Source: Saccoglossus kowalevskii
Lineage: Eukaryota; Hemichordata; Enteropneusta; Harrimaniidae
DNA: 32,185 nucleotides
Assembly (NCBI RefSeq): GCF_000003605.2
Contig: NW_003133344.1
Coordinates: 413,932 to 446,116, forward strand
Direction: 5' to 3'
This document shows positions 8,401 through 32,185 of the stretch, piece after piece (positions within the stretch are counted from its first letter, which is position 1; each line of letters starts with the position of its first letter). The translations under genes and the position numbers were made by a program. The notes beneath the pieces are model-generated. The model was not told the origin of the DNA. It did no database searches and saw only the letters and a program-made list of their open reading frames with translations.

Positions 8401-11400
8401 ATTAAAGCAATCTACAGTATTAGAGGTTGATCTCAAATTATGAGGTGAAACTGTAAAACAATAATCCATTATCAGAATTAAACAAAATCCAAAAATAATA
8501 TCTACAATTATCCGCATCTTTCTAAATTTATACAACATGATAGCTATCTTTTGTCAAACAATATTCACCTCAGTTTAATAATTTTTTTTATAAAACCACA
8601 CAGACTGCTATTTTTCTTTCTTCCGGTACTAATTTTTGTTTTTGTTGAATGCAAGTATACACTAGCAAAAGATTTAACTTTGAATTATGACTCATAGTTA
8701 ATGAGTTAGTCTGAGTGAGAAAAAGCATGGTCATCATCTAGGGCAGTGAAGGAAACAAACCTCAAACAAACAAATCATGTTCTCACAGGCAAAGTTCAAC
8801 ATCACAAGCAAAAAATTGAGTTGTGCATGGAAATATCACTATTCAGTTTAACAGCTTCAACTTAATATACTTTGTAGCTAAAAATTCAAAATTTTGAGTC
8901 AATAAAATAAAAAAAATACAGAAAACCAACCTTGTGAGTTGTTTCTGCAGGTCAGCAATCAGACCGGTACACTGCACAAAGTAGGCATGTTGTACTTCTA
9001 CGAAGTCCTGAAGGCAGCGTAAGTGGTTAGCCTAGTGCACAAAAACAAAATTATGGAAATATAAAAACAGCAAATACCGGTATGCTAAAAAAAGCAATAT
9101 TGTAAAAAAAAAACGATTAGCATAAAGTGCATGTGATGTTGGTATAGAGACAATGGAGGAACATAAATAGGTAGAATGTAAGCATATGCAGTCCTTAAGA
9201 CAGTGTCACTAACTGGACAATGAATGAATGTATTTGTTTCCAAGATTCACTGGTTGTCATGACAACTGACCATGTTTGTTTTTTTATATTTTTGTGTCCG
9301 GCAACAGTTTTGAAGATTTAATGTCACTGTTGTCTCTCCTGACTTTTTTTTATGTGCAGAAGTGGGGAAGTGCTGACATATAGTACATTTTTCCACAGAA
9401 GCCATATTTGTGACAACATGGCAGGGCTGTGTGACCATGTTGCTATTATAATAGAATTCTGGCAATTAAAAGTACTATACAGGTGTCAATCAGGCCCATG
9501 ATGTAGAAATTATAAGCAATTCCAATCATCATGTTTAGGCTCGTGTAACCATGGTTCTGCGTAATATTTATAAACAAGAACACTAAAAATGTTACAATGT
9601 AAAAAGACTTACATGGGCATTGCTGACGCCTTCCAACAACAGTTTGGTGATCTCGTACTGCTTGTCAAATTCACTCTGAGCCACTCTCAGTTCTTCTTCA
9701 GACTGTGAATCACAACATAAAAGGTATAAGTTCATGAAATTGTTGACATTTACAAAAACACGGTGACAGTATTGTACAAGACGTAACATTTCATCAGTAA
9801 TGGTTAACTTGTTCTCATTTTTAGAGGAATTTTATCAAAAAATAGATAGAATACCTTGCTAACAATTGAAGTTTCTGATTTTAATAAAAAACACAATAAG
9901 ATGGATCGAGTTATGATCTCAGCTCTTAGATGTGCTCATCAGATGGCTTATCAAACATGTCAGTATGTAAACTTGTCATTGTCTACGGTGTTGTGTGGTT
10001 CTTACCTCCCCCATTGTGTGTGATATCAAGTTACTAAAATATGCCTAGTGTAGATGTTATATTAAAACACACGAAATCATGATATATCAAATGTGACGCA
10101 GCGTAGAATTGATAGCGTGCCTAAAAACACAGTGAAGTTAGACGACTTAGATTGGTACTTTGTATTGCGATACTGCGTGGTTATCACATGACATCACGAA
10201 TGACGTCATGGCTTAGTACTATCTACAACCGGAAAGTAATACATTAGCGTAAATAATTCGGCCCAATATCAACCAGCTCCACAAAGTAATAACCGATACC
10301 CAGAGATAACCTTTTAATTACATGACCAACTTCACATGTCAAAACAGAGAAATCTGAGAGATTTAACAGAACTGCACTTTAAAAAATCATATGTTAATTT
10401 ATGCTAATTATCTTTGACGTCTAAATACTCAGTTACGATCGTCAATAGTTTCAAAATCAACAGAAATGATACCCTTCCTAGCAATACTGTAGAACACTTT
10501 ATTTTCGCTTGGAATTTATTTTCGCTATTTTCGCTGAAAGGATGATTCTGTGAAAATAAAATCCAGCGAGTATACATTTTCCCTATATTTCACATTCAAC
10601 TCGTCAAAAAATCAGTGAAAATAAATTCCATACAAAACACCCAAATTGCTTTTTCAGCGAAAATTAATTCCAGCTAAAATAAAGTATTCCACAGTATTCC
10701 GAGTTACGATGCTATGCGATAGTTTGTTGATGTTATACCATATAGTATGTTTGGATGGTACAGTTGTGTAATAACGAAATTAATATAATATTTTTTTTCA
10801 CATAAACTTTCCGTCATTATTATCAATTACTGTTATTGCAAGTAAATTGTTGTTATCCAGACCGAAAATTCTCAAATCACATCTATAACAAACGGTTCTG
10901 TCGTCTGATTTATTGTATTTTCTCCATGTAGTTTGAGCACACAGAGAAATGACATATATCCGTGCATATTGACATTTTACACTAAACAGTACCACTTTGG
11001 ATGATATCATGGTCATGTGATAATAAGGTAATTCAGAAAATACCAAAATTTATGTCTGATTACATCATACAGCGAAGATATTATCCAAGACGCATAGCAT
11101 CAAGAATAATGTAAAAGTGAACAATATACGAGAAGATAAATTCTGGTATTATGTTCATCTTTTTGTTCGTGTTTCTCTAAAATTCTGACAAAACAATAAA
11201 AACAGAAATTTATAACTGATAGACGCGATGACCAGGAACATGAATATTTTATCCAGGGCTGTAGCTGATTGGATATTCATGTCACATGACATAATTGTAT
11301 TCTGATTAATGAGATTCAAGTAACATCATCGGTATTACAGACCAGCAACAAACGCCAGTATATGAATTACTGCTTGACATACCACAGTATACAGAATAGA

Positions 11401-14400
11401 AAGAGATTTCCTTCAACAGATCAAGTGTCCCAGTAATTTGGTCATTACAAAACATCATTTTTTAAAACAAATAACTTGATTTTCTAGCTTCAAACTTTTT
11501 GAAATTTTTGTTAAATATGGCAAAATAAATAAATTTGCAGGCAATTGAGGGAATGTTTTTTTCTGTGCAGGCATATATACTTTTCGTGACCTTTCTTTAA
11601 TAACAAACTGACAATTTCAAAAGTTCATTCAAATCATCAATATAGGCACCTGGAGTTGGAAGGTTTGGTCACAAAATAAAAATACTTCAAATAGAGTAGC
11701 ACAATTATAAAAAAAAAAAACATGTATTATTCACTATATAGTTTGTTTTCATTAAAAGAACATTACTGATACATCCACAAGATAGCAGACAGGTAATATT
11801 CAAGTTTCTAAAAATGAAAATTTGAAGCTAGATAATCAGAAAAATACTCTTATAATCACCTCAATCTCCTTCTCATCCTTTGAGACACACATTGGAGGAA
11901 ATAAAATACAAACAATGACAGTCATTTTGGTTTGCCAGTTTACTTTTCTAAAAGTTGATATTATTGTCAAATTTTAAAACAAATACAACATTTCAATAAT
12001 GTTTTAATATAGTCAATAAAAGCTAAATCTGACTACTAGTATCTTAGATTATTATTATGGATATTTTCCTCCAGGATATTAGCATAATAAAACTAGAGTT
12101 GTACAGTCCAGACGCCAACTGTCACATGCGAAATGCGAGCGACAGTGGGAGTCTTACACCCTTTGTGATATCATGTCTGTTTCAGTTTCTCATGAAATTA
12201 ACATGCATTTGGAGTCAACAGAGTTTTACAGTGAAACAGTATTTATTCACGGCAGATAACAAATTGTATTAAATGTCAATATCCAAACAAAAAATTTTGT
12301 GTTTTAAAATCTTAAAGATTTCAAATGAAATGAGCAACAATTTTCAAATTTTACAAACATTTGTATTTTAAAACAATTTACAGTAATCCATTTCAGAACA
12401 TATCCTGGGGACAAATTACATCACAAAATAGAAATTTCAACTGGCAATACAACTTAATACAATTTTGGCAAAGTTTAATGTGGTATTACATATCATATAT
12501 CATTTACCACATCAAATATACTGTTCATGCATTATCGTATCAAACAGCACCAATTAATTTAATTTGGAGGGGAGATATGGAAGGATTAATGTAGCAGTGA
12601 TCACCATAGCAACAGCCACCATTCATTTGGGTCAACCCTATTGATAAATACATGCCCTCAGGCGCCCTCAGGTGATAAATTCATGCAGTTTGCAATCCTG
12701 AGAGCCTGGCCAACACTGCCCCAGAAACATAACAATTCATTCAACATGCACAATTAATGGCGACAATCAACTGTAAAAAAAACACTGAATAAAGTGCTGC
12801 AATAAACTATAAACCCAACAATACACTACAGATACTAAATGAATCTCTGTAGAGACAGGTTTTGATTGACTAATAAAATACAACCTCAGAAACAAAAATC
12901 TTAAAGGGGTATAAATTTATTTATCCCTGCAACTTATTTTTCACCAAATAAGATAAACTGATTGTCGGGCATAAAAGGTGAATATAAACATAACTTTATT
13001 AATTTAACAAAGGCTGTATGTACCGAGTTCAAAGATTCACGGAAGAAGCTATTTTCAATTATATCCTATGAGCAATATTAAAAACCAACCTTTTCACTAG
13101 GTTAACCTGACTGTGCCAGATAAGTAAATGTTTTGGAGATATTTTTACTGAATAAAACATTGTTCAAAACACTTCCATGGTGAGAAATGAACACTACCAT
13201 GGTTAGAAACAAACACTACCATGGTGAGAAACGAACACTTCCATGGTGAGAAATGAATACTTCTATGGTGAGAAATAAACACTTCCATGGTGAGAAATAA
13301 ACACTTCCATGGTGAGAAATGAACACTTCCATGGTGAGAAATGAGCACTACCATGATGAGAAATGAACACTTCCATGGTGAGAGACAAACACTTCCATGG
13401 TGAAAAATTAACACTACCATGGTGATAATCAGTAACCATAGAAACTCAAATATACTTATAACTGAAACAAATAAGTTCCAACATAGTGAAAAGAAGATAG
13501 TTGAACAGAAGTCTGCCCCTGTATGTAAAGCGAGTGAATCTTTACAGCAGTGCGGTGTATACAAATAACAGATTAATGCAAGGCTTGAACTTTGCAGGAC
13601 ACCAATTTTGAAAGCTAAAATTGACAAAATTGTCTTGGCATCATAGAAATAGTCTAGAGAGTATCAAAAGCCAAGGCAAATTGTTTGGCGTGAAGGTGAT
13701 TACCTTTGATGCCTGTCAGAAGTTCAAGCCCTGTTAATGTTATAGAAAAACATAACATAGCTAGGAATGCTATAATTCATGGGGTATATTTACAGTGTTA
13801 AATTTTAGCTGATTTTCCTTTTAATTTAGCATATTTAGCTATAAGTGAAAATAAAGGCAATAGCTAAACCCTGTCCAATATTATGTGGAGATAGTGCACA
13901 CTGCCCTCTAGTGGTAACATATAACATCACATACATAGCAGAGCACCCTCTGGTGGCAATTCACAGCACTTAATTGTTCAGCATTGTTTTGTTTTAGATT
14001 GTGCAGTTGCAACAGTGTATTTTGAAATGCTACATCCAGCGATACCACAAAGCCTTATTGTGGATGAGAAGTACTACAGAATCCTCAACCATTGGTTAGC
14101 GAGAACAAACATAATGCAGATTGGAGTGGTGGGGTGGGGCGTATAGTTGGGAGTGGTTCATTAGCGCATTTTACATTGGTTCAAATATTAAAAAAAAAAA
14201 CAGTGTAAAAGAAAAGAGTTTGGATCACAACTATTCTTCTCACTAGATTGTAGAATTTTTTGCAGATTTTCAAGTATTTTTCTTGAAAATGAAAATAATG
14301 TCCTATTCTCTAAATGACTCAATCAAAATTTATTTTGTGAAACAATGACAATGAATTTTTCACTTCAACAGACTTTATTTGTTTATGACAATAGTTCCCA

Positions 14401-17400: not shown

Positions 17401-20400
17401 TTGAGTAAAATTTCTCTATTTATTGGAGCGTAATTATTCTGGCATTGAAAAGGAGAAACAAACACGAGGCTAGGGGGGCTATACACCTCATTAATATGCA
17501 GCAAGTGTCATTCACCATTGCCACCTCATCATATCGCACCGTATGGATGAAAACTGTTATCAATGACACTTTTAACAACTCAATGCATCAGCAGACAAAT
17601 AGCATCATATTTTAAATTCACCAGTCGAATACCCTGAGTATTAATGGTTATTGTCCTAATTTAAGACTTAAATATTCCTTCAATCTGATGAAAATAATTG
17701 CTCAATATGAACCTCAATAAAATGCAATAAATCTACAACGGACTTAGTATGATATATTCCATAAAGACACAATTACACTGTCCATTGGAATTATTTATTG
17801 GTATTTCAGATCAAAAGTTGCTCAAAAGTGTTTGAGATTTTGTTTAAATGAGGTAATTAATATGCAATTTAGCTACTTAATATGTACAAAATTGCCCCGG
17901 AAACTAATCATCATATCAAATTTAATCTTCTCAGAAGTTTTTTTTAAATTTTTATATCACACAGACAGACAGACACAAACTCATTATCTCCCCTTGTGTG
18001 CTTTGCAAACACATGAACTAAAAATAGGATGTCCTTAATTACACAGAAATGACAAACAGTAGCATACATGCACGTTCTTTATGCATGGTGATACTAAAAT
18101 GTGTGTATCCTTGGTAACAAGGCATGGTTATCCCACTTTTTTTTGTTTGTCATGAAGGGATGTAACATCACTTACAAATTTGTTTGTTTTATTCAATAGA
18201 AGTTAGTCATAGTCTAGGTATTTTGTTTTATGTGTGCCATTTTTTTTTTATTCAATAATGCCTTAGTGCAAAAGGTGAATTTGGATTAAACTTCCATAAT
18301 GCATTGTACATATGCTCAGTAGAGCAAAATGTGAATTTGAATTAAACTACCATAATGCATTGTACATATGCTCAGTAGAGCAAAATGTGAATTTGGATTA
18401 AACTCCCATAATGCATTGTAGATATGCTCAGTAGAGCAAAATGTGAATTTGGATTAAACTCCTATAATGCATTGTACATATGCACAGTAGAGCAAAATGT
18501 GAATTTGGATTAAACTACCATAATGCATTGTACATATGCTCAGTAGAGCAAAATGTGAATTTGGATTAAACTCCCATAATGCATTGTAGATATGCTCAGT
18601 AGAGCAATATGTGAATTTGGATTAAACTCCCATAATGCATTGTACATATGCTCAGTAGAGCATAATGTGAATTTGGATTGAACTCCCATAATGCATTGTA
18701 CATATGCACAGTAGAGCATAATGTGAATTTGAATTAAACTACCATAATGCATTGTACATATGCTCAGTAGAGCAAAATGTGAATTTGGATTAAACTCCCA
18801 TAATGCATTGTAGATATGCTCAGTAGAGCAATATGTGAATTTGGATTAAACTCCCATAATGCATTGTACATATGCTCAGTAGAGCATAATGTGAATTTGG
18901 ATTAAACTACCATGATGCATTGTAGATATGTTCAGTAGAGCAATATGTGAATTTGGATTGTACTCCCATAATACATTGTACATATGCTCAGTAGAGCAAA
19001 ATGTGAATTTGGATTGTACTCCCACAATGCATTATACATATGCTCAGTAGAGCAAAATGTGAATTTGGATTAAACTCCCATAATGCATTGTACATATGCT
19101 CAGTAGAGCACAATGTGAATTTGGATTAAACTCCCATAATGCATTGTACATATGCTCAGTAGAGCAATATGTGAATTTGGATTAAACTACCATAATGCAT
19201 TGTACATATGCTCAGTAGAGCAAAATGTGAATTTGGATTAAACTCCCATAATGCATTATACATATGCTCAGTAGAGCAAAATGTGAATTTGGATTGTACT
19301 CCCATAATGCATTGTACATATGCTCAGTAGAGCAAAATGTGAATTTGGATTAAACTCCCATAATGCATTGTACATATGCTCAGTAGAGCAAAATGTGAAT
19401 TTGGATTAAACTCCCATAATGCATTGTAGATATGCTCAGTAGAACAATATGTGAATTTGGATTGTACTCCCATAATGCATTGTAGATATGCTCAGTAGAG
19501 CATAATGTGAATTTGGATTAAACTACCATAATGCATTGTACATATGCTCAGTAGAGCAAAATGTGAATTTGGTTTAAACTCCCATAATGCATTGTAGATA
19601 TGCTCAGTAGAGCAATATGTGAATTTGGATTGTACTCCCATAATATATTGTACATATGCTCAGTAGAGCAAAATGTCAATTTGGATTGTACTCCCATAAT
19701 GCATTGTAGATATGCTCAGTAGAGCAAAATGTCAATTTGGATTAAACTCCCATAATGCACTGTACATATGCTCAGTAGACCAAAATGTGAATTTGGATTA
19801 AACTCCCATAATGCATTGTNNNNNNNNNNNNNNNNNNNNNNNNNNNNNNNNNNNNNNNNNNNNNNNNNNCAATTTGGATTAAACTCCCATAATGCACTGT
19901 ACATATGCTCAGTAGACCAAAATGTGAATTTGGATTAAACTCCCATAATGCATTGTACATATGCTCAGTAGAGCAAAATGGGAATTTGGATTAAACTCCC
20001 ATAATGCACTGTACATATGCTCAGTAGAGCAAAATGTGAATTTGGATTAAACTCCCATAATGCATTGTACATATGCTCAGTAGAGCAAAATGTGAATTTG
20101 GATTGTACTCCCACAATGCATTGTACATATGCTCAGTAGAGCAAAATGTGAATTTGGATTAAACTCCCATAATGCATTGTACATATGCTCAGTAGAGCAA
20201 TATGTGAATTTGGATTAAACTTTCATAATATATTGTACATGTGCTCAGTAGAGAAAAAATGTGAATTTGGATTGTACTCCCATAATGCATTGTACATATG
20301 CTCAGTAGAGCAAAATGTGAATTTGGATTGTACTCCCATAATGCATTGTACATATGCTCAGTAAAGCAAAATGAGAATTTGGATTGTACTTCCATAATGC

Positions 20401-23400
20401 ATTGTACATATGCTCAGTAGAGCAAAATGTGAATTTGGATTGAACTCCCATAATGCATTGTACATATGCTCAGTAGAGCAAAATGTGAATTTGGAGTAAA
20501 CTCCGATAATGCATTGTAGATATGCTCAGTAGAGCAAAATGTGAATTTGGATTAAACTCCCATAATGCATTGTATATATGCTCAGTAGAGCAAAATGTGA
20601 ATTTGGATTAAACTATCAAAAAAGGATGCACCAATGCTTCTACTATATCTAGGGTAATGAGATTATTTTATCATAATCTGTTGTTAAATTCACATTCCAA
20701 TTATACAGGAATATATATGAATTTGTGTGTGCCACTTGGAAGCCATTCTAAGATTAAACAAACCAGCAATTTACGGCAATCTAGGCAGTTTGGGTGTGGT
20801 AAAACAGCATCTAATAATCAAGCAGTTAGGGGGACTGGTGATGACAATATTATGACTCACCAGTGTAAGCTGGCAACAGTTGTACACAAAAAAAACAATG
20901 CATACATCACATGCATCACCTGGTATGTGACTCAAAGCTTTTAATGTATAAACACACATTTGCATAATCTTATTGTGTAATGGTGGCTCACCAAATAAGA
21001 GCACATGTTAAAACATCAGCTGATGAAAGCATTCATGGATTGCTGAAATGACTGGTGTATAATGGCATTAGCAGACGATGTGTTATTCTGACTATTGTAC
21101 TTTCTCTATTAGAAGCACATATATTTGCGAAATGGTCATTATAATATAATTTATTTTTACCACAAACACGGCTGGAATTTTCGGAAAGACATGTGTTACT
21201 ATGAGAGCAGACACGGTTTTCATACTGGAAGAATTTGGTTAAAGTCAATTTTCTTTTGACAAAAAATAAAAAAATTGATGCATGTATATTTTGTGAATTA
21301 AGGACATTTATGATGAGTAAAAAAGCACTGTGCCAAACTAGTACCCCAGTAAAAACCACTATGACAGCCACTGTGACTCCCTAGTAACCCAACAAAGCCA
21401 CTACTGTAACTGCCCATGGAGCTAAAAAAAGAAGGAGATCGAACAGATTGTAATCCTACTTGAGTCCTTTGTTTTAAGCTGATTAGTTTATTGTTCGCGT
21501 TTGCCTTTCATCTCCGTGATCGCGGCCGGCGTTAAACAATGAATAATTAATGAGCGTCCTCCTCGCATCAGTGACCTGAACTTTGAGAGCTGCGCAGTTG
21601 GTGCCGAAGTTCACCAAACATGCGCGATTTCCAATTTTAAGTTTTTCAGCAACCATGTTGGATGGTGACGTTCGAATCATGGAAATCGCACGATTAATGC
21701 GTCAGTTACAATAATTTTCGTTATTTTCTTACTGCGAAAACATCGTTCGAAAAAAATCGATTTTCTAGCGTGATATTAGGTCCCGGAAAATAATTCTTGG
21801 ATAAAAAGAGAGTAGATTTCGCATACTTGTTGACAATGTGTAGATGACTTGTTACTTCGAGTGGCCAAACGCAGCGTCACACTTTCCATTTCCGCTTGTT
21901 GGTTCGTTTCCTGTTTATGTCTCCCGTGGGTCCTCATAGTTATTGCTGCACTCAGCTGAGCAACACGTTAAACTTGAGCTCTTGTCAATCTGTAATTTCT
22001 CGTGATAATCTTAACTCCGGTCGGTAAAAAACAGTTCAAACGAAAGGATTTCTGCTGTACATCATTTCTAGGTAGGTTACACGATTACTATTATATGGCC
22101 AAGTCTGCAATTCTCGTTTTACTTCGATGTATTTGTACACGAATTCGCCATCGTGTTTGTTTATGTCGAGTGCTAACATCCCCGGGGTTTCCTATTCGCC
22201 GCACTCGGTATAACGTGTTGACATCGCCGCCATTTTGAAATTGTGTTTATTTGTTGCATGCTCGGAAATTGCCGAAACTGTCCGACTGGAACCCGAACGC
22301 CCCTCATTAAATATTCATGGTTGTTTATTGGCTTAAAATTATCGGAACGCCGTGTTTGCTGAGTAAACAGCGGCAACGGTCATTTAAACAATAGCTTCAA
22401 AGGCAGTTCGATCTCCTTCTTTTTTTAGCTCCATGAACTGCCTAAGACCCCAGTGAAAGCAATTGTAATTTCCTAGGTTCCCAGTGAAAGCCACTGTAAT
22501 TCCCTAGAACCATCCCTGTTACAAGAATTTTTTTCATAATAATTTCCCCAGATTGGCAAAGTTCATGAAAATTTGAATATCACCAAGTCAAATCAGTTTA
22601 CAGTAAAGCTCACTCAGCAAAGTAACTTACGTTGATAGTCTTCATGTCACCGTCCAAGAAATTCTTCAATGGCTGCAGATAGTTATGGATACTAGTTGAG
22701 ATGAGCTCTTTCTCTGCAACCCCAAGTTTCTGTTGAACTTGTCCACATTTGACGAGTGCTGCACCTATAGAGAATAATTATAATAATATTATTATATTTG
22801 ATGATTTTAACTGGCACTCATTGGTAAGTTTAAAGGGTGGTATTCGCTGCGTCCTGTTCGATATGAGACTCAGCAGTATCATTTCTACATTTTGCTGCAG
22901 ATCGTCATTATTTTAAAATTTAAAAGTTTTGCCAGTGACTAGGTGATCAAACACTGGCAGTTGTGGAACTCATGTAATTGAACGTATACAACAGTCATTT
23001 TACATTCATTGTTTATGTTTATTGCCAACACTTGGATGTGATGACCGCATTGACTGGAACTCAACAAACATGCTTACCATATGCAGTGCCGGGACCGATA
23101 TCATTTCCAGCATCTACCATAGTTTGACCCAGAATCTCAGGATTCGTAACGCGGTCTGAACGTTTACGATCAACCTTTTCCATCACATAGTCCTCTATTC
23201 TGGCATCTAAAAAATAACAACAGACAAAACTCAAGTTTCATTCATGATTACTACTATGAGTAATTAATGTGTATTCAGAAGGTACCGGTATATTCAGGGG
23301 GGTTATAGTTACGAGGAAATACACGATACCAATACTTCACAAAGGATAGAACAATTCAACAATATATTGGGATCTTACTTGGATTTGGTTGGAGGACTGT

Positions 23401-26400: not shown

Positions 26401-29400
26401 ACCCTTTAACACCAAGATTGACGATAAGATCAAATGTGAATAGCAAGTCAAGCAGCTAGAGTAATGAGAACGTGATGAAGTTCCAACTTTGGAGACACAT
26501 TCTCATGTACATTATTCTATACACATACTACTGAGTAAATAAATTGAGATTTGATTTAGAAATAAATTACTTTGTACAATGAACCATAATGCCACTGGTT
26601 TAATTCTCCAATCTATCCCTAATAAACTAACGAACGGTAGAGAACAGTGTAATTTATTCTGCTGAATCAATACATAGCAATCAAAATAGCAACAAAAAGG
26701 TCACACCATACTCAAAAGCTGGCAAATCATGTTTAACTATTTTGAATCACTCGTTCGGTCTTTTTAGAATAACTATTTTTTATATTAATGTTCCTAAAGT
26801 AAAAAATAAACTACCTTCCCTATTACGAAATGGAGTATGCACCCAACACATTACCCAACCCCATCCACTGAATACACATCGTCAGGAACCAAGAGAATAT
26901 AATAATATTATCTCTAGTTTGTTTATGCTTTTCAATTAGTAACATCGCACAGATGGAGTGGGGATTTACGATCCAGTTCGGCTGTTACATACAATAATGC
27001 ACTTCTTCATTGTCCAACTTTGCTAAATAAAACCCCCGAGATCATGTGATCGGGACAGAATATCATGTGATCAAGGCAGTAGATCATGTGATCAAGATAG
27101 GTTTGAATAAGTTTGTTCATTTTTTGATGATGGCAATTTAACATTTTGTATTTATACGATATTACGAGAAATTTCCCAACCAATATTTCACATGAAATAA
27201 ATAAAAATAGTTTTTATTTTTTGTTTGTTACATAGGCGAATAAAGTAACTAAACTTTCAGGGTCACAAAAGGTCAGATGTAAATATACTGAGCACAAAAT
27301 TATAAATAAAATTAAGATATGAAGAATAATTAAATAATACTACATACTTCAATAATACCAAGCCAGTATTTGATTAGAAATAGTAAAACAATGAAGCATT
27401 TTTTTATAATTAAAAAAAATATAATCATACAATACTGTAAGTTGGAAAATTTGAGAACTGTATCTGCTCTTTTATAAGTGCAAGTAGAACTAAAAAATAA
27501 ACGCAAAAATACATTTATTGTATGTTGGACCATTGAAGCATCATATTTTGACCGCAGACTCACCTCTGTCATTCATTTATTTGTGTATGTGTGTTTTTAG
27601 CTTTTAGTACCATGATAGCAAATAAAGTACCGGGTATTGAACATTTTTCAAATTACGGTGCCTAAAAAGATAATACGAGTTAATCTTGGGAGTTGATATA
27701 TTTAAACTTGGAAAACAGATTATGTGTTCCATATTTGTAACATATGGTGTCCAAAACAGGTTATAATAAATATTAACTTAGGGTGTTCAAAACAGGTTAT
27801 AATAAATATTAACTTAGGGTGTCTAAAACAGGTAATATGTGATATGCGAGTCTAAGATGGTACACCCAAAGAGTTTTTTCTGATATTTGCTCTTGATTTG
27901 GCAATGACAGTGTAGCTCCTAATTTTGTTTCCATGACAACGACATAGTTGCAATGTACAATATGGTCATACCAAAGTACACATTAGAGCACACAGTTTGA
28001 TATGCATATATGGACTTACAGAATTTGATGAATATTAATAATTATTAGTCCTGAGTTAAACATTGAAAGGAAACTATTAATCTGACAGGTACTATAGCAT
28101 TGTGGTATTTTTCGCATGGTTATTTGAACCTAGACAATATCTGAATAGAATATGAACTCACTCCAAATGTATTTTTTTTTTCAATCATCCTTACATCAAT
28201 GCATATCTTAATATAGATACAGATTTCACTTTTGAGTGCCAATAATTTTCCCGCCAAAACTTTTATACATTTTTCTATAATTTCTTTATTAATTTTGAAC
28301 CAAATGGATGTAATACCTTACTCACTACAAATATGATCAAATTACGTGCATTCATTTTGTAAATGGTGACATAAGTTGACTACAATTATAGCGTCATTAT
28401 ACTTATTACTAATTTCTATTCTAGTCTATTCTATTCTATTCTATTCTATTCTATTCTATTCTATTCTATTCTATTCTATTTTATTCTATTCTATTCTATT
28501 CTATTCTATTCATTTAAAAATGTTCATTAAAACTCATTGATATGTAAATTAGCAAAAAACAGCATCAAAAGATCACATACCAGTCAAAGTGTATGTATAA
28601 ATGTAATTAATACACATTTAGTAACACTAAAATTTATTGACATCATAACTGATGGAATAATCTGTTTCACTTATTACCTGGATAGTTCATTTCACATAGT
28701 ACATGCATATTGTATTTAAATGAAGTTGCTGTAGTTGTGTCTGGACGTACATTACGTACACTACAAATATTTTCATATCGACAGTGGCAGTACTGTGAAA
28801 AAGCTATTCAGATTCAAACAGATATTCAAGGTAACGTTAACGACTTGCATGAATGGACATACACATGGATGGACAGAACCCAAAACATAAGTTGCCCTTG
28901 TGGGATTAACAAAAGTAGATCCAAAACAGTCACTGAAATTTGAGAAAATTTGGCAAGCATGAGTCAAAAAATAAGGCAGTTTATTTTACTTGTGTTATTT
29001 TTGTTTAATTCTGGAATATCATTATTATCTTGTTACATAACACGAATTATTTTGCCACATCACAACCTAATACCAGCTAATTATATTTTGTTTGTTTAAC
29101 CATTTTATTTGTTTACTGTCATTTTTCCTGCAAAATGTTAGTGCAATATTTTGCAATATTTTTTATCTATGCTTTTTCAATTTTTTGGATTAATTAAACA
29201 TAATTTGCATTTGCTAAAAAAACTTGATCTAAATTTTTAAAGATTAGGGGGTAAATTACTAAGCGTAATTATTTTGTGATATTTGCATTGAAAGTAGTTT
29301 TGAATTAGCAAAAATGGAAACAACAAATGTCAGTGAAAATTAATTAGCCTAGTCAAACATCTTTAGAAATACGACAATAAAAGAAGACAACAATATTCCA

Positions 29401-31424
29401 GAATATTATATTTTAGTCTGCTTCACGATTATGCGTTTTTTAGGAGTCATCCTAAAGCTTGATTTAACCATAGACCTTAATTCTAAGGTCTATGTTTTAA
29501 CATGAAAAAATTTATGAATTTCGTGAATTCAAAATTTTTGTTTTTTGCTCAATGCACATAAAATAAAAAAGTTCCTGGATTTCCCTTGTTACACAACTTA
29601 TTTTACATTTACATTTAATAGCAAAAACCAAATATTTGTTTTCCAATTGTTATTCTTTTCACTTATTTACAAAACAGGATGTCTACTATGTAATCAAACT
29701 ATAAATATAATTTTATAGTCTACAAGGTGACATCATTTATTTAACTCGGTTTTATTAAATACACAATGGAGTACTGCAAAAGGTGTTGGAACACCACCTT
29801 TAATAAGGTTAATAAACTAAAGGTTATTAAATGATTGAAAATACTAGTAATTGAAAACCAACAGCAGGAATTTAGCATATATTTAACTCAAATACAACAG
29901 TATGTCTGAATTCACACAGAGCAGCCTGCAATTGTTCAAAACACAAATGATTTTACTATTATATTATAAACAAATTTAACCCTTTGAGTGCCAGATATTT
30001 TCCCTCCCGAAAATAAGTGCATATATATTCAACATTCTGTAAAATTTGGCCGTACAGACAAGTTCAGATATTGCTTTTAGTTTTTGATCAAAAGGTTTGT
30101 CAATTTTTATCGACATTTCATGCAGAGAAGACTGCATACAATATTTTTTTTTAGATGATGCCAAAAGTAGACAATTGCACTCAAATTGTTTTTAGAACCA
30201 TGGGTAGAACAAAAATTCATAGTCAACATGATTATTACAATATTTACTATTCCTCACCAGTTAATAGATCTGTTTTTTTTAAATTAACTTTATTAAACAA
30301 CCAGGTTCTGACTGTGCAAAGCAAGCTGTTGCAGGATAAACAAGACCCTAGTTATTTTCATTTGTTGTGCAGTTTGAATCGCTAACAAATTTGACAATTT
30401 CACTGATCAATCAAATTAGATAAGTGTCCACAGACAATTTTTAATGAGATATAGTCATATTATTATTGTACAACTGTTGATTATTCATTTAAAATCATGT
30501 CCACATTTAAGCGGCTTATGTAGCTTGTCACATAAAAACAATTATTCATCTTTAATGAAATTCTTTTGAAATATCTGCAATTGTATACAATTTTGACAAA
30601 AGCTGTTTCTTTAGCAGGGTTCCACTACTATTATTTATTTGTGAAACATTTATTATGACAATCCAACATAGGAATCCCATGCCAATTTATACATATTAGA
30701 AATAAAAAGTTTAGTGAACTAGTATGGGGATGAAATCTCAGAAAAATAGTGTAGTGATATTGAACCTCAAGAAAATAACAAATAAAAAGATGAATCAGTT
30801 TTACAAATAAAAGTTCAAACCAATTCACCTGCGAAAATTAGGTATTTAATAATTGTGTCAATCAACAGGAGATGTTTATCAATTAAAGATTGCATGTAAA
30901 TTTGCAGCAATTTCAGATAAATATTAATTTGTAAATATTAACTGTAATATTAATTTGCAGTTTATTCCTGCTACCCCAATGTTGCTCTATAGACTGTCGC
31001 GTTACAGAGTTATAGCTCAAGTCACAGGCTGTTGTTTCCGTTCATTATTGTGCCACGCCCGTCTCCGCTTTCGTCAATATTAACGTATTAGTAAAATAAT
31101 ATGGATCTGCAATATCTGAAAAAATTGATTCAGGTCCTAAAAGTGATCGATCATTCTGAACGCAAAGCTAAGATGGAAAAATAAATGAGTCGACATCATG
31201 CCCGGAAACGTACGTCGTGGCAGTTTCGGTCATTATTTATGCGAGTTGATTCAACGTTTTAACCGATTTGTCATGTTTTATGCCAAAATGCAATTTTTGC
31301 GATACGCTGGATAGCATGTAGATAACACGTGCATTATTCATAGATTACAATCTTTAAGATTTACCTGCTTAGCTCTAGTAAACAGCGTACCAGCTTCAGC
31401 TGAAAATTTCTTGAATCCTTCCAT
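5312..31424 (-). CDS. SH3GLB: Endophilin-B (SH3GLB/Bif-1 family), complete gene of nine coding exons
   Basis: Gene-level entry. Coding exons in transcript order: 31424-31365, 23520-23379, 23206-23078, 22764-22631, 16673-16581, 9702-9613, 9031-8931, 6948-6786, 5419-5312. They total 1,020 nt, or 339 residues plus TAG, against roughly 365 residues for human SH3GLB1. Every junction is GT-AG and keeps frame, with phases 0,1,1,0,0,0,2,0. Approximate domains: amphipathic helix 1-20, BAR domain to about 249, linker 250-282, SH3 283-339. Recognisable blocks are GPGTAYG, KERKLLENKRLDLDAAK, LLLEGVSNAH and RVLYDYDA. Known role of the family: membrane curvature sensing and bending on mitochondria, Golgi, endosomes and autophagosomes, with the SH3 domain binding proline-rich partners. 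The second Met (31424) is preferred as start because it has A at -3 and G at +4 and aligns with the family N-terminus. An upstream in-frame ATG at 31457 would add 11 residues. Whether this matches SH3GLB1 or SH3GLB2 cannot be decided; an invertebrate probably has a single pro-orthologue. Confidence 0.95.
5420..6785 (-). other. Endophilin-B intron 8
   Basis: 1,366 bp between the GTACAT donor and the CTTCTAG acceptor. AT-rich with poly-A runs. No repeat family or further exon recognised. Confidence 0.8.
6786..6948 (-). CDS. SH3GLB: Endophilin-B exon 8: linker and first half of SH3
   Basis: Enters in phase 2 after a TTTCTTCAG acceptor, completing Ser250. A short linker of about 33 residues rich in Ser/Pro/Asn (with APSAPPKF) precedes the SH3 start TRRARVLYDYDAADLSELSL then LADE, ending phase 0 at GTACAT. 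The ALYDY-type signature is RVLYDY at residues 285-290. The linker is shorter than in vertebrate Bif-1. A second AG eight bases inside the exon (CTTCCAG) would break the frame and is probably not used. Confidence 0.94.
6949..8930 (-). other. Endophilin-B intron 7
   Basis: 1,982 bp with an unusual GTTGGT donor and a TTTCTTCAG acceptor. Low complexity; no internal exon, RNA gene or mobile element recognised. It interrupts the BAR-to-linker junction. Confidence 0.8.
8931..9031 (-). CDS. SH3GLB: Endophilin-B exon 7: end of the BAR domain
   Basis: Reads ANHLRCLQDFVEVQHAYFVQ then CTGLIADLQKQLT, ending in phase 2 with AG before a weak GTTGGT donor. Matches the HHLRCLNDFVEAQ...LDLQKQLG segment. It closes the BAR domain, and the split Ser codon is completed by exon 8. 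Confidence 0.94.
9032..9612 (-). other. Endophilin-B intron 6
   Basis: 581 bp with consensus GTAAGT donor and CACTAG acceptor. Contains the palindromic half-site AACCATGG at 9547-9554. Nothing else seen. Confidence 0.8.
9613..9702 (-). CDS. SH3GLB: Endophilin-B exon 6: distal BAR helix
   Basis: Thirty codons in phase 0 on both sides: SEEELRVAQSEFDKQYEITK then LLLEGVSNAH. Aligns with SEQELRITQSEFDRQAEITRLLLEG in SH3GLB1. Acceptor TTCACAG, donor GTAAGT. Confidence 0.96.
10485..10696. mobile_element. Palindromic MITE copy B (best preserved)
   Basis: 212 bp. The ends are inverted: left TACTGTAGAACACTTTATTT and right (reverse complement) TACTGTGGAATACTTTATTT, and the arms continue with TTCGCT-GGAATT on both sides. 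The first and last TA may be the target duplication, as in Tc1/mariner-type MITEs. No coding capacity. Copies also at 3159-3352 and 24848-24918. Confidence 0.8.
12662..12675 (-). promoter_or_regulatory. Weak CTCF-like site
   Basis: The reverse complement TCACCTGAGGGCGC agrees with 12 of 14 core positions of CCASYAGRKGGCRS. It lies in a short 10-bp duplication (GCCCTCAGGC / GCCCTCAGGT). Confidence 0.25.
13164..13428. repeat. 22-bp minisatellite with a CCATGG core, about 12 units
   Basis: Unit AACACTTCCATGGTGAGAAAT plus one base, repeating every 22 bp, with TTCC/TACC variants. The array keeps a long minus-strand frame open that encodes a repeated FSPWKCSFLTM peptide. Because the unit is not a multiple of three and no homologue is recognised, it is treated as non-coding. 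Confidence 0.9.
13901..13914 (-). promoter_or_regulatory. CTCF-like site 1 (perfect core)
   Basis: The reverse complement CCACTAGAGGGCAG matches all 14 positions of the CTCF core CCASYAGRKGGCRS. It is in the same orientation as site 2, 42 bp away. Confidence 0.5.
13943..13956 (-). promoter_or_regulatory. CTCF-like site 2
   Basis: The reverse complement CCACCAGAGGGTGC matches 13 of 14 CTCF core positions (T for the invariant C at position 12). It lies 42 bp from site 1, about four helical turns. Confidence 0.4.
16581..16673 (-). CDS. SH3GLB: Endophilin-B exon 5: BAR helix, KERKLLENKRLDLDAAK block
   Basis: Thirty-one codons between an AAACAG acceptor and a GTAAGT donor, both in phase 0. Reads KERKLLENKRLDLDAAKSKL then RKTKSDESKAK. 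This highly basic, charged helix is the most conserved stretch of the family. The 3' edge of this exon is where vertebrate SH3GLB1 inserts extra neuronal and muscle exons (known from the family). No such exon was recognised in the following intron. Confidence 0.96.
16674..18253 (-). other. Endophilin-B intron 4, exon 5-proximal part
   Basis: AT-rich non-coding sequence with an (AT)n microsatellite at 16816-16842 and a short (CAGA)n tract near 17961-17975. No exon seen. Confidence 0.75.
16816..16842. repeat. (AT)n microsatellite
   Basis: About 13 uninterrupted AT dinucleotides. Confidence 0.95.
18254..20614. repeat. 56-bp satellite array, about 41 visible units
   Basis: The unit reads CATAATGCATTGTACATATG, CTCAGTAGAGCAAAATGTGA, ATTTGGATTAAACTCC and repeats head-to-tail every 56 bp with high identity. 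Each unit holds three self-complementary hexamers (ATGCAT, TGTACA, CATATG) and a GCTC-AGTA-GAGC hairpin. Units carrying GAGCAT extend the hairpin stem to six pairs. Recurring variants (TAAACTCC, TGTACTCC, TAAACTAC; TACATATG or TAGATATG) are interspersed, as expected from unequal exchange. The first unit is degenerate and internally deleted. Minus-strand frames through it (NALWEFNPNSHFALLS...) are repeat artefacts. The array lies wholly inside endophilin-B intron 4. Confidence 0.97.
19820..19869. other. Assembly gap of 50 N
   Basis: Exactly 50 N inside the satellite. The 87 bases to its left (19733-19819) are identical to the 87 bases to its right (19870-19956), including rare variants, so the gap probably joins overlapping contig ends. 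Confidence 0.98.
21342..21414. repeat. Left part of a roughly 30-bp minisatellite interrupted by the TIR element
   Basis: Degenerate units of the type CCCAGTGAAAGCCACTGTAA-TCCCTAG. The matching right part is 22436-22506. The insertion of 21415-22435 splits one unit. Confidence 0.75.
21415..21444 (+). repeat. Left terminal inverted repeat
   Basis: Thirty bases starting CATGGAGCTAAAAAAAG and ending GATCGAAC, perfectly matched by the right end. Preceded directly by the AACTGCC target duplication. Confidence 0.9.
22406..22435 (-). repeat. Right terminal inverted repeat
   Basis: Perfect inverse copy of 21415-21444, followed directly by AACTGCC. Confidence 0.9.
22436..22506. repeat. Right part of the interrupted minisatellite
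   Basis: Two clear units, CCCAGTGAAAGCAATTGTAA... and CCCAGTGAAAGCCACTGTAA..., each closing with TCCTAG or CCCTAG. Continuous with 21342-21414 once the transposon is removed. Confidence 0.8.
22631..22764 (-). CDS. SH3GLB: Endophilin-B exon 4: central BAR helix
   Basis: Residues 111-155. Reads AALVKCGQVQQKLGVAEKEL, then ISTSIHNYLQPLKNFLDGDM and KTIN, ending phase 0 at a consensus GTAAGT donor. Matches the KCGETQKRIG...TPLRNF-EGD-KTI block of SH3GLB proteins. The next intron (5,957 bp) carries the 56-bp satellite and the TIR element. Confidence 0.95.
23078..23206 (-). CDS. SH3GLB: Endophilin-B exon 3: BAR domain with the GPGTAYG block
   Basis: Enters in phase 1 after a TTTTTTAG acceptor and reads NARIEDYVMEKVDRKRSDRV, then TNPEILGQTMVDAGNDIGPG and TAYG, ending phase 1 at GTAAG. 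It corresponds to the family segment ARIE-F-EKLDRK...NPELLGQ...GPGTAYG. Introns 2 (172 bp) and 3 (313 bp) on either side are short, so exons 2-4 form a compact cluster. Confidence 0.96.
23379..23520 (-). CDS. SH3GLB: Endophilin-B exon 2: first BAR helix
   Basis: Begins after a TGCAG acceptor with YTEEKLGSAEKTEYDAHFEN and ends with TVLQPNP plus one base before GTAAG (phase 1). The EEKLG-AEKTE-DAH-ENL pattern is diagnostic of endophilin-B rather than endophilin-A. It forms the start of BAR helix 1. Residues 21-67. Confidence 0.96.
23938..24033. repeat. 36-bp tandem repeat, about 2.6 units
   Basis: CTGGGAATACAACAGAT(A/G)GC starts units at 23938, 23974 and 24010, with a shared AAAATCCCTTGATTTC tail. 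The third unit is truncated and diverged. Confidence 0.85.
24671..24803. mobile_element. CpG-rich islet with imperfect inverted ends, possible MITE
   Basis: CACCTGCACATGCG at the left pairs imperfectly with CACCTGCGCACACGCG read from the right end, and an inner pair CAAGCG / CGCTTG occurs at 24719-24724 and 24768-24773. CpG density is far above the surrounding intron. No clear target duplication. Confidence 0.4.
24848..24918 (-). mobile_element. Half-copy C of the palindromic MITE
   Basis: Read from the minus strand it starts TACTGTAGAATACTTTATTT and continues CGCTATTTTCACTGAA...GTGAAAATAAAATCCAGC, equal to the left half of 10485-10696 minus an internal stretch of about 17 bp. The second half is missing. 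Confidence 0.75.
26118..26320. repeat. AT-rich tandem repeat
   Basis: Five to six diverged units built on TATTTATGCA(T/C)AATTATTA followed by ATATGAATAATTA or GTCTATAGAATAAAT. Unit length varies around 32-36 bp. Confidence 0.8.
27040..27095. repeat. Three 21-bp units carrying ATCATGTGATC
   Basis: ATCATGTGATC at 27041, 27062 and 27083, exactly 21 bp apart, each containing the E-box CATGTG inside a near-palindrome. Confidence 0.85.
27746..27833. repeat. 36-bp tandem repeat, about 2.4 units
   Basis: GGTGT(C/T)CAAAACAGGTTATA starts at 27746 and 27782, with a partial unit at 27818. The first two units differ by only one or two bases. Confidence 0.9.
28229..28275 (+). repeat. Dispersed TTTGAGTGCCA repeat, copy 1
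   Basis: TTTTGAGTGCCAATAATTTT then CCCGCCAAAA is similar to 29980-30020. Likely a remnant of an interspersed repeat. Confidence 0.45.
28414..28510. repeat. (TCTAT)n pentanucleotide microsatellite
   Basis: About 17 near-perfect copies from 28425, with one TTTTATT interruption near 28480 and a degenerate lead-in. Confidence 0.97.
29469..29494. repeat. Perfect 11-bp hairpin
   Basis: CATAGACCTTA and TAAGGTCTATG are exact reverse complements separated by ATTC. TTAA on both outer sides extends the symmetry after a short mismatch. Too short for a miRNA precursor. Confidence 0.8.
29980..30025 (+). repeat. Dispersed TTTGAGTGCCA repeat, copy 2
   Basis: CCCTTTGAGTGCCAGATATT then TTCCCTCCCGAAAATAAG is similar to 28229-28275 in the same orientation. 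Confidence 0.45.
31365..31424 (-). CDS. SH3GLB: Endophilin-B exon 1: start codon and amphipathic helix
   Basis: Encodes MEGFKKFSAEAGTLFTRAKQ and ends phase 0 before a GTAAAT donor. It matches the conserved family N-terminus with its alternating Phe/Lys helix and the AGT-F-RA core. Families of this type insert this helix into the membrane outer leaflet. The reading frame stays open upstream to an ATG at 31457, which is preceded by an in-frame TGA at 31464-31466, so the maximal exon is 31365-31457. The upstream ATG has C at -3 and a poor context. The exon lies about 7.8 kb upstream of exon 2. Confidence 0.9.
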
Positions 31425-31457
31425 GTTTAATTTCTCGATGAAAATGAGATCCTGCAT

Positions 31458-31680
31458 ATGATGTCACCACCTGAACCCCCTAGGTGATTGCTTTTTGAGC
31501 CCAATTTACGTTTCTACTCTTCTTGTATTTAATTAGTGTGTTTTTAATTTATTTAACATTATTTAACACACTTAAACAATATAAATTAATTATTGTTGTT
31601 TTTTATGATCACTTGAAATAAATATAAAAAATTTCATGACCTTTGACCACAGTCACCGGATCGTTGGCTAAGGCGGCAAC
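31458..31680. promoter_or_regulatory. Candidate bidirectional promoter between endophilin-B and AOPEP
   Basis: Both genes begin at the edges of this short interval and diverge, so the 5' UTRs and core promoters of both should lie here or overlap the first exons. It holds an ATATAAAA TATA-like run near 31621, a DR1 pair at 31637-31648 and AT-rich sequence in the middle. Inferred from position only; no transcription start site can be read directly. Confidence 0.55.
31637..31648. promoter_or_regulatory. Perfect DR1 nuclear-receptor site
   Basis: Plus strand reads TGACCTTTGACC; minus strand reads GGTCAAAGGTCA, a direct repeat of the nuclear-receptor half-site with a one-base spacer. This is the form bound by HNF4, RXR heterodimers and COUP-TF in animals. 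It sits 33 bp before the AOPEP start codon. Confidence 0.5.
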
Positions 31681-31861
31681 ATGACAGCACCAAACGTGGA
31701 AGTGTTGCATTCTGATAAAGTTATCGATATTGCCACAGCTTCGAATTACAAAGACTTCAAAGTGAGACATTTTCACTTGGATCTCGACGTGCGATTTGAG
31801 TCACAGACCATTGTTGGTGCTATAATTCTCGACATTGAAATTGACAGACCGTGTGTAGAAG
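31681..31861 (+). CDS. AOPEP: M1-family aminopeptidase, probably aminopeptidase O, first coding exon (partial gene)
   Basis: The ATG is preceded by an in-frame TAA at 31669-31671 and has A at -3. Sixty codons plus one base end at a GTAGGC donor (phase 1). The segment FKVRHFHLDLDVRFESQTIV then GAIILDIEID resembles the N-terminal beta-sandwich start of aminopeptidase O (VKHYVLDLDV-FESQVIEGTI) better than leukotriene A4 hydrolase or aminopeptidase B. The catalytic HEXXH region would lie in exons beyond the window. Known family function: zinc-dependent removal of N-terminal residues from peptides. Without splicing the frame stops at 31894, which supports the donor. Orientation is head-to-head with endophilin-B. 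Confidence 0.75.
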
Positions 31862-32185
31862 GTAGGCGATCTGCTGCGATAACTTGCATGCAATAACTTG
31901 ACTCGTTTGAAGCTGGCAGACACTCCCAGAAGACAGTGGAAGCTAGCAGACACACTAGCAGCCACAGTCTATCAGGCATAATATTGCTTTGAATCAAAGT
32001 TTATCACATCTTTTTGCATCACGTAATCACGTAATGGCTAATACTAGTATTCATTTAAACAGAGAAATTCTAACAAATGTACTCACTCCCCCTGAAAGTG
32101 TATCTCTATGTGCGTGTATATAAACACTATTCCCAATATTTTTTGGGAAATATTGAGTGTGCACCTTATCCACATATTTTTACTG
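31862..32185 (+). other. Start of AOPEP intron 1
   Basis: Non-coding sequence after the exon 1 donor. It contains a short direct repeat GAAGCT(G/A)GCAGACAC at 31909-31923 and 31938-31952, and a 7-bp inverted repeat TTCCCAA/TTGGGAA at 32130-32149. No second exon is visible. Confidence 0.6.

Follow-up and report, generated by a model that had tools for sequence, protein, structure and literature searches.

A 1021-bp mobile element occupies positions 21415..22435 (no strand assigned) of the window, by which we mean the whole 32,185-bp stretch of DNA analysed, and is bounded by perfect terminal inverted repeats (TIRs) and a target-site duplication (TSD). We assign it, with a probability of about 0.9, as a non-autonomous cut-and-paste DNA transposon that lies within an endophilin-B intron in an animal genome; it is known from one copy. 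The element has exact ends, a true duplication, paired subterminal inverted repeats (STIRs), and a surrounding tandem array whose register is restored when the insertion is taken out. We take the insertion to be genuine, probably fairly recent, and ordinary in kind; in anatomy the element comes closest to P elements.

The window is animal DNA, and its minus strand encodes the endophilin-B gene. A query assembled from three exon translations gave endophilin-B1 as its best match (PDB 6up6, E 6.7e-45), and the Pfam BAR domain scored above cut-off in two open reading frames (ORFs; E 2.8e-12 and 6.6e-08); one further BAR stretch and one SH3 stretch fell short of the Pfam cut-offs. Protein match and splice donor together place an exon of the BAR domain region at 22631..22764 on the minus strand, with its donor GT at 22630-22629. 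The intron that holds the element begins at 22630 and ends at about 16674, and the element lies 188 bp past the splice donor.

Several other repeats are present in this region. The same intron carries two adjacent arrays of a 56-bp unit at 18264-20614 (27.8 and 13.3 copies; matches 93%), and a stretch of N falls between or within them (the whole window has 50 N). A 22-bp-unit array is found at 13168-13425 (11.7 copies) and a TTCTA array at 28414-28511 (19.6 copies). At the right end of the window, the plus strand at 31672-31896 weakly resembles the N-terminus of a leukotriene A4 hydrolase/aminopeptidase (E 0.0011), and we take this stretch to be most like AOPEP.

Direct comparison of the two TIRs bore out the exact 30-bp inverted ends proposed in the original prediction. 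The left TIR (CATGGAGCTAAAAAAAGAAGGAGATCGAAC, 21415..21444, plus strand) and the right TIR (22406..22435, minus strand) are complementary at 30/30 positions, as expected of a non-autonomous cut-and-paste transposon of the TIR type. The pair cannot be extended, and both element ends begin CATGGAGC. At up to three mismatches, the TIR 30-mer occurs in two places in the window, both of them element ends, against a chance expectation of 0.00 (mean of 100 shuffles). It is also the longest exact inverted pair within 5 kb anywhere in the window; the next independent exact pair is 16 bp long and AT-rich. In an exact scan, the first 21 TIR bases gave no stretch in a viral contig collection and one stretch, in a bacterial MAG, among bacterial and archaeal contigs, where the 30-mer was absent at up to three mismatches. 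The 18 inner TIR bases gave one stretch in viral contigs, again without the 30-mer at up to three mismatches. We treat these single fragment matches as chance. Because the scanned collections are viral and bacterial/archaeal, absence from them is uninformative about animals.

Copies of the 7-mer AACTGCC flank the element at 21408..21414 and 22436..22442 (both plus strand), outside of which lie the left and right parts of a degenerate 31-bp tandem array (21362..21407 and 22443..22507, plus strand), recognized by array comparison as the insertion target. Identical 7-mers spaced 1021 bp apart occur at 6 of 31038 window positions, the AACTGCC pair included. Between the two flanks, which are diverged copies of the 31-bp repeat, 11 of 5382 7-mer pairings are identical. 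Since array-derived flanks share 7-mers anyway, we examined the array register separately by aligning the joined flanks to the repeat unit after removing 0 to 14 bp along with the element. The score peaked at 77 when 6 or 7 bp were removed, compared to 76 for 5 bp, 74 for 8 bp, and 70 for none. Both AACTGCC copies also differ from the corresponding array unit, AATTCCC, at the same two positions. Removal of the element plus 6-7 bp thus puts the array back in register, indicating that the duplication proposed earlier is genuine. Array register alone leaves the TSD length uncertain to the base; the direct copies set it at 7. The duplication expected of a cut-and-paste non-autonomous transposon is seen both as two AACTGCC copies and in the array register. 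These observations also bear on the suggestion that the inverted repeat arose by chance within a tandem array and that the direct repeats are simply array words. The identical 7-mers in 11 of 5382 flank pairings would be in keeping with such an origin, but an exact 30-bp pair was never reached in shuffles and the array stays out of register unless one AACTGCC copy is removed, leaving this explanation with almost no credibility.

Directly inside the TIRs the element ends diverge, and they then share a 20-base STIR block. The left STIR (AACAATGAATAATTAATGAG, 21535..21554, plus strand) matches the right STIR (AACCATGAATATTTAATGAG, 22303..22322, minus strand) at 18/20 positions. The two copies lie at offsets of 121-140 from the left end and 114-133 from the right end, about 120 bp from each. 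Such a pair was found in 0/1000 dinucleotide shuffles under strict scoring and 2/1000 under relaxed scoring, in agreement with the original description of subterminal inverted blocks at similar distances from both ends. A further inner inverted pair (21633-21657 / 22316-22340), of 76% identity, plays no part in the argument. Short words common to both ends just inside the TIRs were discarded, as the best 10-mer (8/10) was matched by 269/500 shuffles.

The base composition of the element is unlike that of its surroundings, as had been noted: GC is 0.416 and CpG observed/expected (o/e) 1.42, compared to 0.331 and 0.48 in the remaining window. In the 961-bp interior (21445..22405, no strand assigned), CpG o/e reaches 1.46. 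The window is otherwise CpG-poor, with a median CpG o/e of 0.51 in 1-kb windows. Values near 1.1 occur at 10001-11021 and 30751-31771, with just 31 and 32 CpG, respectively, and the second of these regions runs into the beginning of the aminopeptidase-like stretch.

Dinucleotide ratios in the left flank (CpG 0.26, TpG 1.59, CpA 1.48) form a CpG-decay pattern; those in the right flank are 0.57, 1.27, and 1.40. The element, with CpG 1.42, TpG 1.05, and CpA 1.01, lacks the decay seen around it. Recent movement, as originally suggested, is supported by the perfect TIRs, the unchanged TSD, the undecayed CpG, and the neutral TpG and CpA values, although we infer the date from this one copy.

In line with the original view, there was no sign that the element encodes its own transposase. 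Four interior ORFs searched against Pfam (E up to 1) gave no match, THAP and P-type transposase domains included, as expected for a non-autonomous copy. A PDB search with one of these ORFs, also at E up to 1, returned none, and the longest ATG-started ORF in the element has 65 codons. The CpG-rich interior may be cargo picked up from the promoter or first exon of a host gene and now held between the transposon ends, a possibility that is compatible with the assignment as a transposon and that we regard as tentative and rather less probable than its converse. The element contains 63 CpG, compared to a shuffle mean of 44 (reached by 0/2000 shuffles), which goes beyond a mere lack of decay. A motif scan found one exact YY1-type site in the interior (AAAATGGCGGC, 22226..22236, minus strand), using what we take to be the YY1 motif. 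Precedent for unrelated interiors exists in Anopheles, where the P-MITEs described in PMC1562414 have centres unrelated to P. Against capture, the four ORFs gave no Pfam match, and a scan of the element allowing one mismatch found no NRF1, CRE, or ETS motif, with TATA and CAAT motifs present only in one-mismatch form. The CpG level may also merely reflect the parent transposon.

The arrangement of the ends invites comparison with the P superfamily. The Drosophila melanogaster P element is described as having 31-bp perfect TIRs, 11-bp STIRs, and spacers of about 100 bp, with internally deleted copies spanning 0.5-2.8 kb (PMC7776569). Our element resembles it in its long perfect TIRs (30 bp) starting CATG, in a STIR lying about 100 bp inside the end (offsets 114-140), and in being a non-autonomous copy within that size range. 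It differs in its TSD (8 bp in fly P) and in its STIR, which has 20 bp with 2 mismatches. The Anopheles gambiae P-MITEs, compared by their described anatomy, are likewise non-autonomous, lacking a transposase, and belong with P masters whose TIRs are 27-31 bp (PMC1562414); unlike our element, they have 8-bp TSDs. The zebrafish Pdre2/THAP9 element shares a CAT start and a TIR plus STIR (PMC10983969). It departs in its 13-bp TIR, 12-bp STIR, and 400-bp spacers (PMC7776569) and in its 8-bp TSD.

In the sequence of the TIRs, by contrast, similarity to P elements is no better than chance. With the fly P end taken from PMC9682801 and PMC11368186 as reference, the TIR matched at 12/25 positions ungapped and had a gapped score of 6, which was equalled by 0.15 of shuffles and, in a repeat test, by 800/5000. 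The same score was reached by 316/4888 CA-starting and 48/372 CATG-starting 24-mers in the window and by 0.40 of shuffles with CATG fixed. Likeness to the Pdre2 end was also at chance in the gapped comparison, and neither candidate was retained. Within 200 bp of the ends, every position had at least 2 mismatches to what we take to be the 10-base P transposase site. The Repbase rule for non-autonomous elements, as given in PMC4455052, asks for the same TSD length and at most one mismatch over terminal positions 1-11. The two P ends compared, both from elements with 8-bp TSDs, showed 5 (fly P) and 6 (Pdre2) mismatches.

The 7-bp TSD is a further departure, as 8 bp is the usual P length. Galileo, a Drosophila member of the P superfamily, has mostly 7-bp TSDs (PMC4168063, PMC2775673), so the superfamily is able to produce them. 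Galileo otherwise differs from our element in its long, internally repetitive TIRs and its TSD consensus, GTANTAC, in place of AACTGCC. The original statement that no common superfamily is an exact fit was reasonable, but Galileo makes 7-bp TSDs (PMC4168063) and the TIR-plus-STIR layout is P-like (PMC7776569). We assign the element to no superfamily because the TSD is 7 rather than 8 bp and the ends are unlike those of fly P, Pdre2, and hobo. A transposase of the P-element type, with the element working like a P element, has in our estimate about an even chance of being correct.

Among other assignments, a non-autonomous hAT element, for which the 7-bp duplication would be atypical, is unlikely but has some points in its favor. 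hAT ends start with C-A and have G at position 5. Our element shares both features, as does hobo, from whose ends it differs at 5 positions over bases 1-11, the same number as from fly P. An example command for Repbase that extracts hAT entries with a 7-bp TSD suggests that such entries exist (PMC4455052). On the other hand, published hAT dimensions are a TIR of 5-27 bp and a TSD of 8 bp (PMC2874221), compared to 30 and 7 here. In gapped comparison, the hobo ends do no better than chance (4625 and 3896 of 5000 shuffles equally good), and the 5 mismatches, with hobo ends alone compared, exceed the one that the Repbase 1-11 rule allows. We consider a Dada element less probable still, indeed improbable. 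Its 6-7-bp TSDs would accommodate the 7 bp seen here, and many, though not all, Dada families target multicopy small RNA genes (PMC8869645). No such target is present, as the window contains 0 tRNA genes and 0 Rfam families at gathering score; the comparison with Dada covers TSD length and target choice. Intermediate between these in our estimate, and itself doubtful, is membership in a superfamily not yet described, marked by a 7-bp TSD and CATG...CATG ends, or kinship with a family outside the ends compared. No terminal match was obtained among the reference ends, and in literature text the first 14 TIR bases matched only in an unrelated context. Foldback FB4 did give a gapped match, but this was inner, in another register, and A/G-rich, with 15/5000 shuffles as good and five references tried; over bases 1-11 FB4 has 8 mismatches. 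With a handful of reference ends compared, a missing match means little.

For the non-autonomous cut-and-paste transposon that we favor, a mechanism can be proposed. In cut-and-paste transposition, the transposase pairs both ends and joins them to staggered cuts in the target strands. Here, the transposase would be supplied in trans from another locus of the host genome and would bind the element ends, probably at the paired STIRs as well as at the 30-bp TIRs. It would excise the element from a donor site and insert it at staggered cuts, 7 bp apart, in the small tandem array of the endophilin-B intron. Gap filling would then produce the AACTGCC copies.

The locus provides a clean example of a TSD that can be supported from a single genome alone, through the tandem array into which the element inserted. 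A more far-reaching possibility, to which we give little weight, is that the element represents a recently active family, either a 7-bp-TSD branch of P outside Drosophila or a new superfamily, that carries a captured CpG-rich promoter with a YY1-type site. If so, introns could acquire a regulatory unit from non-autonomous copies. Were the family P-like and still mobile in this animal, a 7-bp lineage would join Galileo, the only one in the literature compared here, and the family would be a candidate genetic tool; otherwise, the element would be an ordinary intronic transposon copy.
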